From an uncultured Gammaproteobacteria bacterium (lineage in GTDB: Bacteria; Pseudomonadota; Gammaproteobacteria; Enterobacterales; Psychrobiaceae), in the NCBI GenBank assembly GCA_913060565.1, contig CAJXRU010000020.1, positions 1 to 41,664 on the forward strand: DNA of 41,664 nt. Reading direction: 5' to 3'. A model generated the notes under the pieces. The model was not told where the DNA came from. It saw nothing but the letters and a program-made list of their open reading frames with translations, and ran no database searches. The stretch's first letter is position 1. Every line of letters begins with the position of its first letter. A program made the position numbers and the translations under genes. Of the stretch, positions 8,639 through 14,760 are shown one piece after another.

Positions 8639-9082
8639 TTATTCGCCTCTCACTTGAATTTTCTCAACGTTACTAAAAGATGTTTTCGCAGGTTTGCCAG
8701 TCAGCGTAAATTCAATTGCCACGTAGTTATTACGCGTTTTTCCTGCTGATTTGGTATATACCCATTTTTGAACACCTAATATTGCGCTCGCATCGAATAA
8801 CCCATCGTGATCAGAAGCGACCACCTCAATATCAGAAGCATTGCCATCTTTTTCAATACTGAAATTGACCAAAACAGCCCCTTCAATCTTGTTTTTTATC
8901 GCATATTTAGGATAAATCGGCAGCGCTCTTTTAATAACGGAGACTTCAGTAGCCGCAGCTTCCGCCTGATTGCCAGCATGACTTTGGAAAGCAATTGAGC
9001 TCAGTATGAGTAAAACCCCAGCAGGCATAAAATGCCAAGTGTTAGTGATTCGCTTAAAAAAGTTATTTGCACGTATCTTCAT
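8639..9082 (-). CDS. Small secreted protein with TonB C-terminal domain
   Basis: A 147-aa protein with a hydrophobic N-terminal segment (about residues 17-34, likely a signal peptide ending near SHAG) joined almost directly to a TonB C-terminal-type domain (about 50-128). The domain shows the family pattern IYPKYAIKNKIEGAVLV, a DG turn, and a final strand FDASAILGVQKWVY. True TonB proteins have a membrane anchor and a long Pro-rich spacer that reaches TonB boxes. Both the spacer and ExbBD neighbours are missing, so energy transduction is doubtful. These short forms are common in Alteromonadales and of unknown role. A paired palindrome lies upstream. Confidence 0.75.
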   Translation of the reverse strand: MKIRANNFFKRITNTWHFMPAGVLLILSSIAFQSHAGNQAEAAATEVSVIKRALPIYPKYAIKNKIEGAVLVNFSIEKDGNASDIEVVASDHDGLFDASAILGVQKWVYTKSAGKTRNNYVAIEFTLTGKPAKTSFSNVEKIQVRGE

Positions 9083-9370: not shown

Positions 9371-10588
9371 TTAGTTGTGGTGTTTATTCAAATGTTGTTT
9401 CAACAGATCTTTGCCGTAGTCGTTGCCATTAGGCGTTCTGATCATTGTGTGAATGTGATTACGCGTTGGGCTTCTATCGTTCGATGGGACACCAACGGGT
9501 GCTTGATGATCAAATTCAATTAAAACGACAGGGTTATGAATTCTATAATAAAAAACACCATCATCTGTCGTGTCTCCGGCCCAACCAAACCACGTGTTAT
9601 CGATGTGTTTTTGGACATCAGCCATTTTTACTTTGGCGTGGCCATCACGCATTTTTCCAATGTATTGGTCAGTCAAGGTAAGTAAATCCGCACGCTGTTT
9701 AGGTGTCATATCTTTTGCATTTACGCCTTGATAGTCCAACGTCAAGTTGTCTTGAAAACCAGCCGCTTTTAAATTTTCACGGCGTTTTTCGTCAATACGT
9801 GCTGTTGTTTGTTGATCGGCATTCAGACTTTGCATCAATGCTAAACCAAGGTTTTGTTCGTCTTGAAACAGCAAGTTTCCTTCGTGCTTACCCGACGTAG
9901 CCAGCACTGGCTCTGCCCCCATAAATGCGGGAGAGAACACCACTTGGTCGCCTAAGATAAAGTAGTTAATAGCCAGATGATGGCCATCAATTTGCCAGCC
10001 CCATGGCTGAGTTTCTGACGGTGTCCCCATGATGGTAATAAAATACAATTCTTCATCGAGGTGCGGCGCACCATTGTTGAGTTCACGTAATGTTTGATCG
10101 GTTTTCATAATGTCGCGCGTTTGCTGTAAGCCACGCGCGCTCAAGGAAGTTCGCAACATGTTAAATGCCGCCATTTTTTGATCGGTCGTCATTTCTTTAA
10201 GACTAACGCCTTGGCGGTCGTAAATACCATTATCGACATTTAACCATTTACGCCATTCAATATCGTCAACTGAAAATGATGCCTTTTCTTGTTGTTCTGG
10301 CGATAACTGCGCTAGGAATAACTGCGCTGTGTCGACGATGGGTTTAGTAGAAACACCGGTAGATTTAATTGGAAATAGCCCCGATTGAATACCATCAGAG
10401 GTGCGTACACCGACAAACTTTTGTGACAAGGCGTCTGACTCTCTCTTGGCAAATGCTCTAGTTGCACCTTCCATGCCTTTAGATTTCTGTATTTTATTAG
10501 CCGATGTAACACCTTTGTCTGCAACAAGCTCATTTTGATTGCATCCAGCAAGACTGGCTGCAATGATTACTGCTAATAATGATTTCAT
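9371..10588 (-). CDS. DUF3500-family lipoprotein
   Basis: A 405-aa protein with a lipoprotein signal (lipobox LAGC, lipidated Cys at residue 16). The body matches my recollection of DUF3500. The recognisable blocks are WGWQIDGHHLAINYFILGD, VVFSPAFMGAEP, FEDEQ-like LLFQDEQNLGLAL, and a C-terminal NHIHTMIRTPNGNDYGKDLL. Conserved His residues in GHH and HIH suggest a metal or catalytic site, but no activity is established for the family. The polar C-terminus ends in HLNKHHN. It is divergent from the peroxiredoxin gene with 169 bp of AT-rich promoter between them, and appears monocistronic. Confidence 0.8.
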   Translation of the reverse strand: MKSLLAVIIAASLAGCNQNELVADKGVTSANKIQKSKGMEGATRAFAKRESDALSQKFVGVRTSDGIQSGLFPIKSTGVSTKPIVDTAQLFLAQLSPEQQEKASFSVDDIEWRKWLNVDNGIYDRQGVSLKEMTTDQKMAAFNMLRTSLSARGLQQTRDIMKTDQTLRELNNGAPHLDEELYFITIMGTPSETQPWGWQIDGHHLAINYFILGDQVVFSPAFMGAEPVLATSGKHEGNLLFQDEQNLGLALMQSLNADQQTTARIDEKRRENLKAAGFQDNLTLDYQGVNAKDMTPKQRADLLTLTDQYIGKMRDGHAKVKMADVQKHIDNTWFGWAGDTTDDGVFYYRIHNPVVLIEFDHQAPVGVPSNDRSPTRNHIHTMIRTPNGNDYGKDLLKQHLNKHHN

Positions 10589-10757: not shown

Positions 10758-11225
10758 ATGAAAATTGAAACAATGCCAAATGGCCAACTAACACAACGCC
10801 TAAATGGTGAAACTGTTACTCACGATGCAATTGAGCTTTTCGCTAACAAAAAAGTCGCTCTGTTTGCCGTTCCCGGTGCTTTCACTCCAACCTGTTCCGC
10901 ATCTCATTTACCAGGTTTTGTCGCACTAGCAGATAAAATCAAAGCCAAAGGTGTCGATGCGATTGTTTGCTTATCTGTTAATGATGCATTTGTCATGGAA
11001 GCTTGGGGGCAAGCTCATAATGCTGAAGAAATCATGATGCTAGGCGACGGTGATGGCAGTTACACCAAGGCATTAGGCCTAGACAAAGAAACTGGCAGCT
11101 TCGGCGGTATTCGCTCACAGCGTTATTCGATGATTGTTGATAATGGCGTGGTGACTAATTTAAACATTGAACAACCAAAAGAATTTAAGATCAGCGATGC
11201 CGAAACACTATTAGGCCAGATTTAA
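10758..11225 (+). CDS. Prx5-type peroxiredoxin (redoxin family)
   Basis: A 155-aa thiol peroxidase that reduces hydrogen or organic peroxides. The peroxidatic cysteine C46 lies in the signature PGAFTPTCSASHLPGF, characteristic of the Prx5/hybrid peroxiredoxin branch. A second cysteine in VCLSVND could serve as resolving residue, and an Arg in the GIRSQRYSMIV strand matches the active-site Arg position. Length is normal for a single-domain member without a fused glutaredoxin. No signal peptide is present, so it is cytoplasmic. The next gene (an unknown Cys-rich membrane-anchored protein) starts 27 bp later with no promoter visible between them, so co-transcription is likely. Confidence 0.92.
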   Translation: MKIETMPNGQLTQRLNGETVTHDAIELFANKKVALFAVPGAFTPTCSASHLPGFVALADKIKAKGVDAIVCLSVNDAFVMEAWGQAHNAEEIMMLGDGDGSYTKALGLDKETGSFGGIRSQRYSMIVDNGVVTNLNIEQPKEFKISDAETLLGQI

Positions 11226-11252
11226 ATATCACTTATGCAAGGACGCTTTTTG

Positions 11253-12374
11253 ATGTTAAACAAACCACTTTCAATCTTACTAATAATATCTTTAATCATA
11301 GCGCTTGTAGTTGCATGGAAATACAAGACAAATGATGACTTGATGAGGAATAATAAATTACCTCTTCTTGTCAAACTTCATCATTCCGTTCAGGCCAATA
11401 GATTCACTACAGAAAAAGCGCCTTACTCTCCTCGGAAAGTAGTCACTAACAAGCCTGATTCAGAGTCAACTGAACTCTTAACATGTGACGATGGACTTCA
11501 TCACGCTCAAGAGTTTATCGACTTATCTGCCAAAAATCAGACACTTCAACAAAGTCTTCTAAACTCCAACGAAATAGAACATCAATTCTTAGCGAATATG
11601 TTAAACAGAGATACTACTCTACAAGCTAAAATCGACTCCCTATCAAATTTACTAAAAGAATCGCCAAATAATGAGATCATTTCATACAATTTATTAGCAT
11701 TATGTGCAGAAGGACAACAACTTTGCGCACAAGAGCTACTAGACAGAATAATGTCAGTTCAAAAAGATAACGGGGCAGCCTGGGCATTAATCTCGAGCAT
11801 TAGTGCTCAAAAAGATCATGGGCAACATGCGATTCAAGCATTGATAAATGCTTCTAAAGCTCCATTTTTCGATAACTATTTAGAGCTAAATACAAAATTT
11901 ATAGATAATGCCTATCGTGATATGGGAGCAGATGACGATTTACTTTTATATGTTGCTCTAATGACCCATGGTATCTCTTCTTCACCGCCAGTGATTCCCA
12001 TAATTAACCTTTGTCAGCCTCCTTTACTGTCAGACTCTAAAGTATTAGATGCCTGTTTTCATGCAGGAAATATATTTAGGCAAGGAACTCCTATGACCAA
12101 AATAGGTGGCGCAGCAATACAGATGTATGTTTATATCGAGCTAGGTGATGATTCTGCATTGCAAGAAGTAAAGAAAGAACTAAAAGAACTCGAAAAGCAC
12201 GCTATACGACACGGTAAAGCAATGGACATATTGGCAAGGCACAAAAATTCAGTAGCTGATTGGTTGGAATTTAGATTAGCTGGAGATGATTCTGGTAGTG
12301 AAATATATGCGATCACTAAGTCGAAGAAAATAGAAAGAGAATTCAATTCAAATGCTTGCAATTTTAATTGGTAA
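11253..12374 (+). CDS. Membrane-anchored Cys6 repeat protein, paralogue 1 of 3
   Basis: I do not recognise this 373-aa protein. It has one N-terminal transmembrane segment (about residues 7-25), a Ser/Thr/Lys-rich linker, and then a helical body that looks TPR-like (LSNLLKESPNNEIISYNLLALC and GAAWALISSISAQ blocks). Six cysteines match its two neighbours: one after the linker (LLTCDD), a C-x6-C pair (LCAEGQQLC), a C-x13-C pair (LCQ...DAC), and one close to the C-terminus (NACNFNW). This suggests disulfide bonds in the periplasm. The start at 11253 is chosen because AAGGACGC precedes it, as in the other two copies; an in-frame ATG at 11235 overlaps that signal. It is the most divergent copy. 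Confidence 0.75.
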   Translation: MLNKPLSILLIISLIIALVVAWKYKTNDDLMRNNKLPLLVKLHHSVQANRFTTEKAPYSPRKVVTNKPDSESTELLTCDDGLHHAQEFIDLSAKNQTLQQSLLNSNEIEHQFLANMLNRDTTLQAKIDSLSNLLKESPNNEIISYNLLALCAEGQQLCAQELLDRIMSVQKDNGAAWALISSISAQKDHGQHAIQALINASKAPFFDNYLELNTKFIDNAYRDMGADDDLLLYVALMTHGISSSPPVIPIINLCQPPLLSDSKVLDACFHAGNIFRQGTPMTKIGGAAIQMYVYIELGDDSALQEVKKELKELEKHAIRHGKAMDILARHKNSVADWLEFRLAGDDSGSEIYAITKSKKIEREFNSNACNFNW

Positions 12375-12406
12375 TTAGACACAAAAATCAATTAGGTACT
12401 CATGCA

Positions 12407-12476
12407 AAGGACGCGTTTTATGTCATTTAAAAAAGTAGCAGTTCCTTTAGTTGTTGGCGCTATTACAGCCATTATT
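12407..12476 (+). repeat. 70-bp 5' segment duplicated almost exactly (copy A)
   Basis: This segment covers the ribosome-binding site, the start codon and the membrane-anchor codons of paralogue 2. It matches 13617-13686 at 69 of 70 positions, differing only at 12441 (G) versus 13651 (A). Outside it the two genes differ at many positions. Confidence 0.95.
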
Positions 12477-13547
12477 TATAGCGAAATAAAAAAAGAATCT
12501 TCCATTGACGCTGCATTAGATTCATTGCCGACATCGGTCACTGAATCAGTGATTCAGACGACTCATGTCGAACACACTGCACCTTCTATTTCGAAAAAAG
12601 AAGTTACGCCCCCCACTAATAAACCAGTCATTACTGTTTGTGAGAATGTTTTTGAAGGGGCCATTTTAAACAACGAACAAATGAGCGAGTTAGACGCTAA
12701 CGATATCAAAATGCGACAAGTCATTGCTGATACATTGACACTAGAGAGTGAGTTTACGGCCTTAATCACTAATCAGAACGACACAGAGACTAAGATAGAA
12801 AGAACGTCACAGCTTAGTGAAAAGTATCCAAATAATCCGTTAATTTCTTATGAATTACTCTCGCTTTGTAGTAACAGTGAATATAACTGCTCACCCGAAC
12901 TCGTTACATCAACAGTGCAACAAGATTCAAACAACGGTGCTGCGTGGTTGTTATCTGCGATTTATCACGCGTCCAATAATGATACGAATTCTGCTGAAGC
13001 AGCTATTATTGAAGCCTCAAGGGCACCGAACTTTAATGATCATTGGAGTGACTATTCTTCAACTTTTTCAACCGCATATAAGCAAGCTGGCGCGATAGAA
13101 GGTGTCGAACTCGACGTTTTAGTAATGGGATATGTTGCCGCCCTGTCGAGCCCCAGCTATGGCGCGCTATTCAAGTTGTGTAAACAGGCACCTGTTGATA
13201 ACACAGCGCTGCTTGAAGCTTGTCTTACTTCGGGACAGTTGTTTGCTGACGAAAGTTCGGCTCAAATCTCACGATTAATCGGCAGTAACATTCAAAAGAA
13301 CGTGCTGACTAAACTTGGTCATACTGATGAATTAGCGCGTATTGTGCAGGCAAGAAAAGAGATGTTCGCTATCAACGAACAACAAAGTAAAGCACTCGAT
13401 TTAATATGGCGTAATCAATCGCTGCGAGCAGAATGGCAAGCTGAACTCATTAGAAATGGCGAAGTAACAGCAGCACAATTTGCCATAAATGAAGCAATAA
13501 GAATATCCAACGATCCCAATATTAATGAATGTTTAGTGGTTAATTAA
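12420..13547 (+). CDS. Membrane-anchored Cys6 repeat protein, paralogue 2 of 3
   Basis: A 375-aa paralogue of the flanking genes, function unknown. The N-terminus MSFKKVAVPLVVGAITAII forms a single membrane anchor, followed by a low-complexity linker (about 25-75). The helical body carries the shared blocks LSEKYPNNPLISYELLSLC, NNGAAWLLSAIYHA and AAIIEASRAPNFNDHW. The six cysteines fall in the same places: VCEN, C-x6-C (LCSNSEYNC), C-x13-C (LCKQ...EAC), and NECLVVN at the end. ATG 12420 is preferred over 12402, which lies upstream of the AAAGGACGC ribosome-binding site. The tandem arrangement with short gaps suggests an operon. TPR or Sel1 relatedness is only an impression from helix pattern. 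Confidence 0.78.
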   Translation: MSFKKVAVPLVVGAITAIIYSEIKKESSIDAALDSLPTSVTESVIQTTHVEHTAPSISKKEVTPPTNKPVITVCENVFEGAILNNEQMSELDANDIKMRQVIADTLTLESEFTALITNQNDTETKIERTSQLSEKYPNNPLISYELLSLCSNSEYNCSPELVTSTVQQDSNNGAAWLLSAIYHASNNDTNSAEAAIIEASRAPNFNDHWSDYSSTFSTAYKQAGAIEGVELDVLVMGYVAALSSPSYGALFKLCKQAPVDNTALLEACLTSGQLFADESSAQISRLIGSNIQKNVLTKLGHTDELARIVQARKEMFAINEQQSKALDLIWRNQSLRAEWQAELIRNGEVTAAQFAINEAIRISNDPNINECLVVN

Positions 13548-13564
13548 CAATTATTTATTAAACA

Positions 13565-13587
13565 TTGATATTATCACCTAATATCAA
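13565..13587. other. Intercistronic stem-loop between paralogues 2 and 3
   Basis: A perfect 9-bp inverted repeat (TTGATATTA, loop TCACC, TAATATCAA) lies in the 82-bp gap. The stem is AT-rich and is not followed by a T-tract, so it is not a standard terminator. It may be an mRNA processing or stability element or a protein site. Confidence 0.45.
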
Positions 13588-13616
13588 GAATAACTCATAC
13601 TAAAATTACGCCAAGC

Positions 13617-13686
13617 AAGGACGCGTTTTATGTCATTTAAAAAAGTAGCAATTCCTTTAGTTGTTGGCGCTATTACAGCCATTATT
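13617..13686 (+). repeat. 70-bp 5' segment duplicated almost exactly (copy B)
   Basis: Counterpart of 12407-12476 at the head of paralogue 3, with 69 of 70 positions identical. It includes AAGGACGC, the ATG and the first 19 codons (through ACAGCCATTATT). Confidence 0.95.
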
Positions 13687-14760
13687 GCTCTTGAATTAAA
13701 ACGTGAAATCTCAGGTTTTGATGAGGTATCGCCACAACAAGAACAAACAACTGAAGTTCAAGCCGTTACAAGCCAACTTAAAACTTCTCCAAATGAAAAG
13801 AAAGTCGTTCAACCTGAATCCTCAAAAGGCACTGTCATTGCCCAAGAAATAACTGAGTGTAAGGTTATAGACAACGAATCAAGTGAAGAATATGAAAATC
13901 GTTTTAATCGCGAGTCAGTTCGGTTAAACACGAACATCGCGCAGCTTGATACTTTAGAAAGTAACTTATACAAATTACTAACAGATAGTAGCGCCCCCCA
14001 CATTGCGTTAGAAAAAGCATTATCACTCAGCGAAAAATACCCTAACAATGATTTGACCAACTATCATGCCTTATCGGTATGTAGTGATGATGCAAATCTT
14101 TGTTCTGAGACACTGGTTTCTGACACGATTGATAAACTGTCAGATAATAGTGCGGCGTGGCTGCTCAAGGCGATTTATCATGCAGGTAAAGATGATACCA
14201 CCGCTGTCGAAACGGCCATTATTGAGGCATCAAAAGCCACCGCTTTCAACGGTCATTGGCATGATTACGTCGGTGTAATATCAAATGTCTACCAACACGC
14301 TGGAGATACAGGAACTCAGCTGCAAGATGAAATCAAAATGGGATATATTTCGGCAGTTGCATTGCCTTCATACGGCTCTTTACACAAAGTGTGTAAGCAA
14401 GCTTCGATGGAAAAACTCACGCTAATTGAAGCTTGTCTAACCGCTGGGCAACTGCTAGAGCGTGACAGCAAAACCTTTATCGCCAAGTTTATTGGCTTTT
14501 CAATGCAAGAAATTGCGTTAGAAAAACTCGATCGCCCCGAAGAGTTATCGCGCCTAGCCACAGTGCGCCAAGCTCATAAAGCGCTCCTAACCCAACAAGC
14601 CAAAGCAACCACTCTACTCTGGCGTAACACACCACTTCGTCATCAAATGCTGCGCCAGATAATGGAACATGGCGAAATAGCCCATGCAGAATTTGCGATT
14701 GAAGAAGCCATTAAACTCTCTAATGCGCCCAACGTTGATGAATGCAAAACGGTTAATTAG
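13630..14760 (+). CDS. Membrane-anchored Cys6 repeat protein, paralogue 3 of 3
   Basis: A 376-aa paralogue, function unknown. The anchor MSFKKVAIPLVVGAITAII differs from copy 2 by one residue over 19. A Gln/Ser/Lys-rich linker and the helical body follow (LSEKYPNNDLTNYHALSVC, SAAWLLKAIYHA, ETAIIEASKATAFNGHW). Cysteines are conserved: ECKV, C-x6-C (VCSDDANLC), C-x13-C (VCKQ...EAC), and DECKTVN. Copies 2 and 3 are clearly closer to each other than to copy 1. The body similarity is far lower than the near-identity of the first 70 bp, which points to recent gene conversion or strong constraint on the leader and anchor. Confidence 0.78.
   Translation: MSFKKVAIPLVVGAITAIIALELKREISGFDEVSPQQEQTTEVQAVTSQLKTSPNEKKVVQPESSKGTVIAQEITECKVIDNESSEEYENRFNRESVRLNTNIAQLDTLESNLYKLLTDSSAPHIALEKALSLSEKYPNNDLTNYHALSVCSDDANLCSETLVSDTIDKLSDNSAAWLLKAIYHAGKDDTTAVETAIIEASKATAFNGHWHDYVGVISNVYQHAGDTGTQLQDEIKMGYISAVALPSYGSLHKVCKQASMEKLTLIEACLTAGQLLERDSKTFIAKFIGFSMQEIALEKLDRPEELSRLATVRQAHKALLTQQAKATTLLWRNTPLRHQMLRQIMEHGEIAHAEFAIEEAIKLSNAPNVDECKTVN

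Follow-up and report, generated by a model that had tools for sequence, protein, structure and literature searches.

Three tandem six-cysteine proteins encoded next to a peroxiredoxin gene belong to an unnamed family with a predicted membrane anchor and a probable TPR-like body

TPR proteins of the bacterial envelope, built from repeated helical hairpins, are the closest described counterparts of the proteins analyzed here. YfgM combines a transmembrane segment with a TPR domain in the periplasm, through which it binds PpiD and the translocon (PMC9643414). In the Helicobacter cysteine-rich proteins (Hcp), which have Sel1-like repeats, disulfides connect each repeat at its end with the beginning of its successor (PMC3851747); positive selection on Hcp paralogues has been described (PMC3608669), a feature that we list as a likeness. 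We compared with these systems three consecutive genes of contig CAJXRU010000020.1 (C20; assembly GCA_913060565.1) from an uncultured gammaproteobacterium of the Psychrobiaceae. The window is this whole contig of 41,664 nucleotides, part of a 4.35-Mb genome. A first-pass annotation had described the three gene products as paralogues of unrecognized family, each combining one N-terminal anchor and a polar linker with a helical-repeat body and six matching cysteines, and had proposed that they form an envelope redox or stress system with the neighboring peroxiredoxin. Reading of the open reading frames (ORFs), hydropathy analysis, and AlphaFold2 modeling confirmed the description; the proposed system fared less well.

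The three genes are intact and lie in tandem on the plus strand, downstream of a gene for a Prx5-type peroxiredoxin (Redoxin; PF08534, 1.5e-33; positions 10758..11225, plus strand) without an N-terminal hydrophobic segment. They encode proteins of 373 (ORF1; 11253..12374), 375 (ORF2; 12420..13547), and 376 residues (ORF3; 13630..14760). Each contains exactly six cysteines at matching positions, namely, residues 78, 151, 158, 254, 268, and 369 in ORF1, residues 74, 150, 157, 254, 268, and 371 in ORF2, and residues 77, 151, 158, 255, 269, and 372 in ORF3, so that the motifs C-x6-C and C-x13-C noted in the first-pass annotation recur in all three. The intergenic gaps measure 27 bp (Prx5-ORF1), 45 bp (ORF1-ORF2), and 82 bp (ORF2-ORF3), the first of these, as previously reported, with the later of the candidate starts. 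Additional in-frame ATG codons are located upstream of the chosen starts at 11235 and 12402; the later starts were selected for ORF1 and ORF2 because a common leader ends at 11251, 12419, and 13629. This leader, AAGGACGC(G/T)TTTT, precedes all three starts; before ORF1 it reads AAGGACGCTTTTT (11239..11251, plus strand) and resembles a ribosome-binding site common to the three genes. The string AAGGACGCNTTTT has three matches in the window versus 0.3 expected, and in none of the other 84 full-length family members does the start show the first letters of the leader. Since the gaps are short, the strand is the same, and a site scan revealed no plus-strand terminator-like site between the four genes, co-transcription is allowed and a single transcript Prx5-ORF1-ORF2-ORF3 appears possible. 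One promoter-like plus-strand site was detected upstream of ORF3 (13544-13572), in a region holding fewer such sites than shuffled sequences. The paralogues are not close, ORF2 being 27% identical to ORF1 and 42% identical to ORF3, and no fourth copy was found in the same genome with a profile built from ORF1 to ORF3.

The absence of a recognizable family, as annotated at first, was borne out. No Pfam or NCBIfam model exceeded its cut-off for ORF1 to ORF3, and neither PHROGs nor PADLOC gave a convincing match to them. A Pfam and NCBIfam scan of 33 members yielded only single hits that differed between members, none of them consistent, and the ORFs without anchor at loci L029, L066, and L234 likewise matched no named family above cut-off. 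A full-text literature search, with subscription papers mostly outside its coverage, did not retrieve a description of the family. The three genes nevertheless belong to a genuine family, one without a name in Pfam, NCBIfam, PHROGs, or PADLOC. Reading of 92 loci from related genomes gave 95 family ORFs in 89 of them; the remaining three contained one extra full-length six-cysteine ORF (L189), an N-terminally truncated ORF (L172), and no family ORF (L028). The 87 ORFs termed full-length exclude those below 345 residues; the L172 and L189 ORFs stand outside the 95, and family fragments in genomes G977 and G1013 outside all counts. Sequence divergence is large, with 15 to 24% identity to ORF2 in a 33-row alignment, ORF3 excepted. 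The family is also patchily distributed. A profile search of 98 genomes gave matches in nine, counting the window's own, two of them weak. Among 394 genomes of the order, 26 contained strong matches and 35 contained matches at an E value of ≤0.001, nine of these being weak and partial. By taxon, matches occurred in 10/40 (family f8), 53/395 (family f7), and 17/152 (family f6) genomes and in three of nine genomes of the window's own genus. No match to ORF2 was obtained among 50,697 phage and 72,556 plasmid records.

The cysteine pattern is nearly invariant. It fits 86 of the 87 full-length ORFs, the sole miss (L024) having a masked stretch over C5, and because it is shared so widely it lies far beyond chance. 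Exactly six cysteines follow residue 30 in 84/87 full-length ORFs, and the numbers of intervening residues are confined to 4 to 9 (C2-C3), 92 to 99 (C3-C4), 8 to 13 (C4-C5), and 95 to 110 (C5-C6). Across 91 aligned ORFs, cysteine occupies C2, C3, and C4 without exception; it is found at C5 in 90 (the remaining ORF has an X there), at C1 in 87, and at C6 in 88. Two N-terminally truncated ORFs account for C1 departures, and the C6 of L074 is merely misaligned, a cysteine being present at residue 386 of 387. The L029 and L066 ORFs lack both C1 and C6; they form a sister pair (99* in a quick tree) in which the anchor is replaced. Other well-kept columns correspond to G288, G347, and E348 of ORF2.

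Distant relatives point in the same direction. A draw of 369 genomes from the class, nearly all belonging to other orders, gave nine matches at an E value of ≤0.001, including the window's genome. In the eight others, two ORFs have the four inner cysteines (G405 and G666; loci L237 5355-6611 and L238 5327-6352, both minus strand), one has three of them (G757; L239 5164-6390, plus strand), and five are without the pattern; with a larger profile at an E value of ≤1e-5, only the window's own genome and G405 passed within the class draw. The G405 ORF comprises 418 residues and carries the core C-x6-C and C-x13-C, that of G666 carries C-x5-C and C-x13-C, and neither has C1 or C6. The anchored six-cysteine form was seen only in one order, across five of its families, and the exported four-cysteine core thus seems wider (or older) than the anchored form. 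Because C1 and C6 are missing together in L029, L066, and the distant relatives, their pairing appears tied to the anchored form. Matches at L085, L086, L087, L089, and L090, which have no cysteine core, were treated as TPR look-alikes, and a named relative in Aquificaceae, also without the cysteines, as a TPR resemblance. L028, the match in G063, lacks cysteines and is lost with the better profile; it was not counted as family, and we take its protein to be BepA-like.

Anchors were predicted as the best 17-residue Kyte-Doolittle stretch, considered hydrophobic at a mean of ≥1.8. Such segments were obtained for residues 6 to 22 of ORF1 (11268..11318, mean of 3.0), residues 3 to 19 of ORF2 (12426..12476, mean of 1.87), and residues 6 to 22 of ORF3 (13645..13695, mean of 2.31), all on the plus strand. 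An N-terminal hydrophobic segment is present in 85/87 full-length ORFs, the net positive charge is greater before than after the segment in 74, and the linker from the segment to C1 spans 44 to 84 residues in 84. A lipobox occurs in none of the 87 and a nearby A-x-A in five. From these features we infer an uncleaved N-terminal anchor with the body on the periplasmic side. This location is supported by the distant relatives, which bear export signals: judged by eye, the ORFs of G405 and G757 start like signal peptides and that of G666 like a lipoprotein.

Regarding the fold, a profile of the 33 members was compared with PDB sequences and retrieved designed TPR chains, with a best E value of 1.4e-5 at profile positions 166 to 206; one of the 33 members had a TPR_19 hit (5.7e-5). 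AlphaFold2 models were built from the three window sequences only. The full-length model of ORF2 is helical but weak, with a mean predicted local distance difference test (pLDDT) of 56.6, and the model of its body alone reached a pLDDT of 69.1 and a predicted template modeling score (pTM) of 0.62; both consist almost wholly of helix. The Foldseek and VIA-align lists comprise mostly TPR chains, and VIA-align together with the profile delimits a TPR-like stretch at residues 106 to 203 of ORF2 (12735..13028, plus strand), which contains C2 and C3. We therefore read the body as TPR-like, a reading of the models that the profile match supports independently. Numbered as in the body model, C82 (C2) ends the helix from 72 to 82 and C89 (C3) immediately precedes the helix from 91 to 100, whereas C186 (C4) is located near the end of the helix from 179 to 187 and C200 (C5) within the helix from 194 to 210. 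In the model, C2-C3 and C4-C5 thus bracket helix turns in a staple-like layout that resembles the Hcp disulfides.

The family also differs from the described systems. In contrast to TPR domains in general, including YfgM and the TPR part of BepA, it has six near-invariant cysteines, and none of the members scanned reaches a Pfam or NCBIfam cut-off. The N-terminal hydrophobic segment, seen in 85/87 ORFs, and the probable TPR-like body may correspond to the transmembrane segment and periplasmic TPR domain of YfgM, the membrane side being predicted from charge and from the export signals of distant relatives; none of the 33 members matched a YfgM family model in Pfam or NCBIfam at an E value of ≤0.01. 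A match of ORF1 to the NCBIfam model of BepA (8e-5, 21.6 bits) falls in the C-terminal part of that model (positions 333 to 440 of 483), which we take to be its TPR portion; it is far from the cut-off of 570 bits, and Pfam shows no peptidase domain in ORF1 (BepA combines M48 and TPR). The signal peptide of HcpC is cleaved, and its disulfides link repeats all along the array, whereas the present proteins carry six cysteines at constant positions, together with a linker and an anchor that is apparently uncleaved; their predicted disulfides would comprise two close-spaced pairs and one distant pair. None of the 33 members matched a Sel1 model at an E value of ≤0.01, and the 25 PDB matches of the profile include no Hcp chain. 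The window resembles peroxiredoxin operons in having Prx5 27 bp upstream on the same strand and departs from them in that most family loci have no such neighbor, as set out below.

The reading that we prefer, with a rough probability of 0.57, is that the proteins are TPR-like adaptors or chaperone-like binders, tethered to the inner membrane with their bodies in the periplasm and stabilized by structural disulfides, and that Prx5 is a cytosolic neighbor. Each protein would consist of one uncleaved N-terminal anchor, a polar linker of approximately 55 residues, and a periplasmic TPR-like helical-repeat body. All six cysteines are read as forming structural disulfides: C2-C3 and C4-C5 would staple neighboring helices, C1-C6 would close the ends, and the three bonds together would lock the body, supplying stability rather than redox catalysis. 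The earlier suggestion of exported, disulfide-bonded proteins is supported as probable. By analogy with YfgM, the most likely role is that of inner-membrane-tethered binders of periplasmic or envelope clients. The peroxiredoxin encoded upstream would be a cytosolic enzyme sharing the transcript or just the address. Surfaces and copy number would change fast, and rapid surface change around a constant frame suggests that the partners change as well. If true, this would offer envelope biology a new and testable disulfide-dependent module, in which near-invariant cysteines hold an otherwise free-running sequence.

Several observations count against this interpretation. The confidence of the models is moderate, given an input of three sequences, sequence-level TPR support is limited to one stretch, and the C-terminal part of ORF2 (approximately residues 320 to 375) was hardly covered by the fold search. 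Foldseek returned nothing at an E value of 0.001 or better (best, 4.2e-3), and the best VIA-align superposition, on a designed TPR (body residues 38 to 135, root mean square deviation of 2.1 over 97 residues), has a Z score of 10.3, values below approximately 13 being attainable through a merely common arrangement among helical repeats. The charge rule is broken in 13/87 full-length ORFs, and a second stretch with a mean hydropathy of ≥1.6 occurs in five. L190 and L191 carry additional cysteines, and the G757 relative has three of the four core cysteines and neither C1 nor C6. L194 and L209 as called have no anchor yet retain six cysteines, so that loss of the anchor and loss of C1 and C6 are not strictly tied, unless the starts are miscalled. 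Finally, no functional partner is conserved across genomic contexts, and the client-binding role therefore rests on analogy.

These contexts were defined by clustering the 514 ORFs that lie within three positions of a family gene in either direction, which resolved the 89 loci into 52 independent contexts. The commonest shared neighbor is zapA, directly upstream in 16 loci that form one synteny group and named by Pfam in L067. In both zapA-linked loci scanned for it, 6S RNA follows just downstream of the family gene (L067 6062-7240 and L206 4028-5224), which is thereby placed inside the zapA-ssrS gap. Other neighbors, such as an rlmI-like methyltransferase, EF-P, an uup-like ABC protein, TraB/GumN, and Ap4A phosphorylase, recur locally, within particular sets of loci; as none is fixed, a functional assignment from neighbors was rejected. 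As a separate observation, L075, L078, L081, L070, L073, L176, and their kin lie beside ribosome-stall genes (uup- or EttA-like by eye, EF-P by Pfam). Most full-length genes (71/87) follow a same-strand upstream ORF, with a gap below 100 bp in 45 of the 71.

The family evolves rapidly. In the tree, a quick search with many weak forks from which L230 was omitted as too short, the median end branch is 0.72 changes per column, and members from the window's genus (G002, G004, and the window) are scattered. ORF2 and ORF3 are sisters (100*), and ORF1 is the most divergent of the three, with a branch of 1.91 and no firm sister relationship to the others. Further tandem copies exist at L078 and L026. 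A 70-bp tract covering the leader, start codon, and anchor of ORF2 (12407..12476, plus strand) recurs at ORF3 (13617..13686, plus strand) with 98.6% identity by blastn, and its exact 33-base core occurs twice in the window versus a mean of 0 in shuffled sequences. Eighteen of the first 20 residues of ORF2 and ORF3 are identical, all 18 with the same third base; beyond these codons, nucleotide identity per 20 codons drops to 0.37 to 0.69. The tract looks like a recent partial gene conversion between the two genes. Broken family copies, with a frame change or stop, were found at L026 8368-9578, L178 4056-5270, and L193 3736-4759. Just upstream of the family gene at L072 (3252-5446) stand ORFs that, by eye, resemble a recombinase and an integrase. 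A wider picture can be offered tentatively and only as a whole: this may be an unnamed, fast-evolving family of disulfide-stapled, TPR-like envelope proteins whose exported core with four cysteines is old, and bacteria of one order may gain and duplicate a form with six cysteines, tethered to the inner membrane, behind a variety of housekeeping genes as exchangeable adaptors or shields of the envelope, some with peroxide-linked control.

The peroxiredoxin neighborhood, on which the first-pass interpretation was built, was surveyed with six queries (one Prx5, a longer Prx5-like, a TlpA-like, one AhpC, and two Bcp proteins), a set that may miss other thioredoxin-like neighbors. A peroxiredoxin of any subfamily lies within three ORFs of a family gene in 5 of 52 contexts; the subfamily names Prx5, Bcp-like, Tpx-like, and AhpC-like are our assumed designations, Pfam itself giving Redoxin and AhpC-TSA. 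Besides the window, with Prx5 immediately upstream on the same strand, these are L069 in G348 (1011-2820), where the order is opposite, a Prx5 54% identical to that of the window following immediately downstream on the same strand after a 151-bp gap; L029 in G015, where a Bcp-like protein is encoded 9 bp upstream of a member without anchor; the loci L176, L181, L182, and L185 from four genomes, with a Tpx-like protein as third ORF; and L230, with an AhpC-like protein as second ORF, next to a short family member. One reading of such loci is a peroxiredoxin-linked envelope redox or stress system, in which a common peroxide signal acts and the six-cysteine proteins serve as thiol clients, sensors, or protectors. 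With the window excluded, the four contexts seen exceed the 0.71 expected (P = 0.006), and the L029 peroxiredoxin could meet the family body, since its start resembles a signal peptide. The excess depends, however, on a rough null density of 9 per 3,900 genes, taken from one genome and an assumed gene number, and on counting all peroxiredoxin types within three ORFs, a choice made partly after the fact; a doubled rate raises P to 0.055, and direct neighbors alone (2 seen versus 0.24 expected) give P = 0.024, or 0.08 at the doubled rate. Moreover, with these queries, 47 of 52 contexts and all three distant loci in other orders are without a peroxiredoxin, in L176 and L181 both intervening genes are on the opposite strand, and the peroxiredoxin-linked members do not cluster in the tree (four of the five contexts; L230 was too short). 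Nor were the two genes found together in the genus outside the window's genome: orthologues of the window Prx5 (93, 69, and 62% identical) occur in G007, G005, and G008, none of which yielded a family member, and the two genomes with the family, G002 and G004, contain just a 47 to 48% identical relative of the longer type. The gene downstream of Prx5 in G005 and G008 is not a family member; G007 is uninformative on linkage, as its contig ends inside Prx5 and the genome is 80% complete. The window Prx5 itself has no signal sequence, which should place it across the membrane from the family bodies, and it would act in the cytoplasm. The cysteines, furthermore, almost never vary, like structural ones. 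Such a system is therefore rather unlikely. Conserved linkage to the peroxiredoxin gene was not seen, and a redox system as a general property of the family, as first proposed, is not supported. Our conclusion is that the link does not define the family and that the Prx5 neighbor is probably mostly a bystander; the looser idea of a peroxiredoxin association is weakened, not refuted. On the whole, the initial observation stands and its interpretation is partly supported. The case cautions against inferring function from a single adjacent gene, as the striking Prx5 is not shared by most relatives.

The near-invariance of the cysteines could alternatively reflect a reversible thiol switch, with one pair acting as a periplasmic redox sensor, and the narrow C2-C3 and C4-C5 spacings (4 to 9 and 8 to 13) would suit it; the even number of cysteines, with none further after residue 30 in 84/87 ORFs, their bracketing of helix turns like staples, and the loss of C1 and C6 as a pair make this very improbable. 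Rapid change, patchiness, tandem copies, and partial gene conversion would be explained if the proteins were anchored periplasmic binders that neutralize toxins or block receptors, i.e., immunity, receptor-shielding, or conflict proteins. The long end branches, the strong matches in just 26 of 394 genomes, the tandem arrangement seen in the window and also at L078 and L026, and the scatter of one genus over the tree fit this idea. Neighbor clusters shared by at least three loci, however, contain no recognizable toxin, effector, or defense gene, PADLOC, PHROGs, and the phage and plasmid records gave nothing in its favor, and many members stand singly behind housekeeping genes such as zapA, so that we consider it unlikely. 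The same placement, with 52 contexts for 89 loci and 71/87 genes behind a same-strand ORF, might indicate degenerate or selfish hitch-hikers without fixed role, copied behind expressed genes; the broken copies in G077, G952, and G1024 and the recombinase- and integrase-like ORFs at L072 would agree. Yet the cysteines and the G-E motif are kept across very distant members, which requires selection, and no recognizable mobile-element gene occurs in the neighbor clusters shared by at least three loci, leaving this quite improbable. The tethered adaptor or chaperone-like binder thus remains our preferred explanation.

As to the remaining genes of the locus, C46 and C71 of the window Prx5 are invariant in an alignment of five proteins, and its PGAFTPTC motif carries what we take to be the peroxidatic-type cysteine. 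On the minus strand, a short TonB_C-domain protein of 147 residues without a long linker is encoded at 8639-9082 (PF03544, 9.8e-15). A DUF3500 protein with a lipoprotein-like start (9371-10588, minus strand; PF12006, 7.7e-103) is divergent from the Prx5 gene, and the near relative G007 (L106) has a similar DUF3500-like ORF arranged as in the window.

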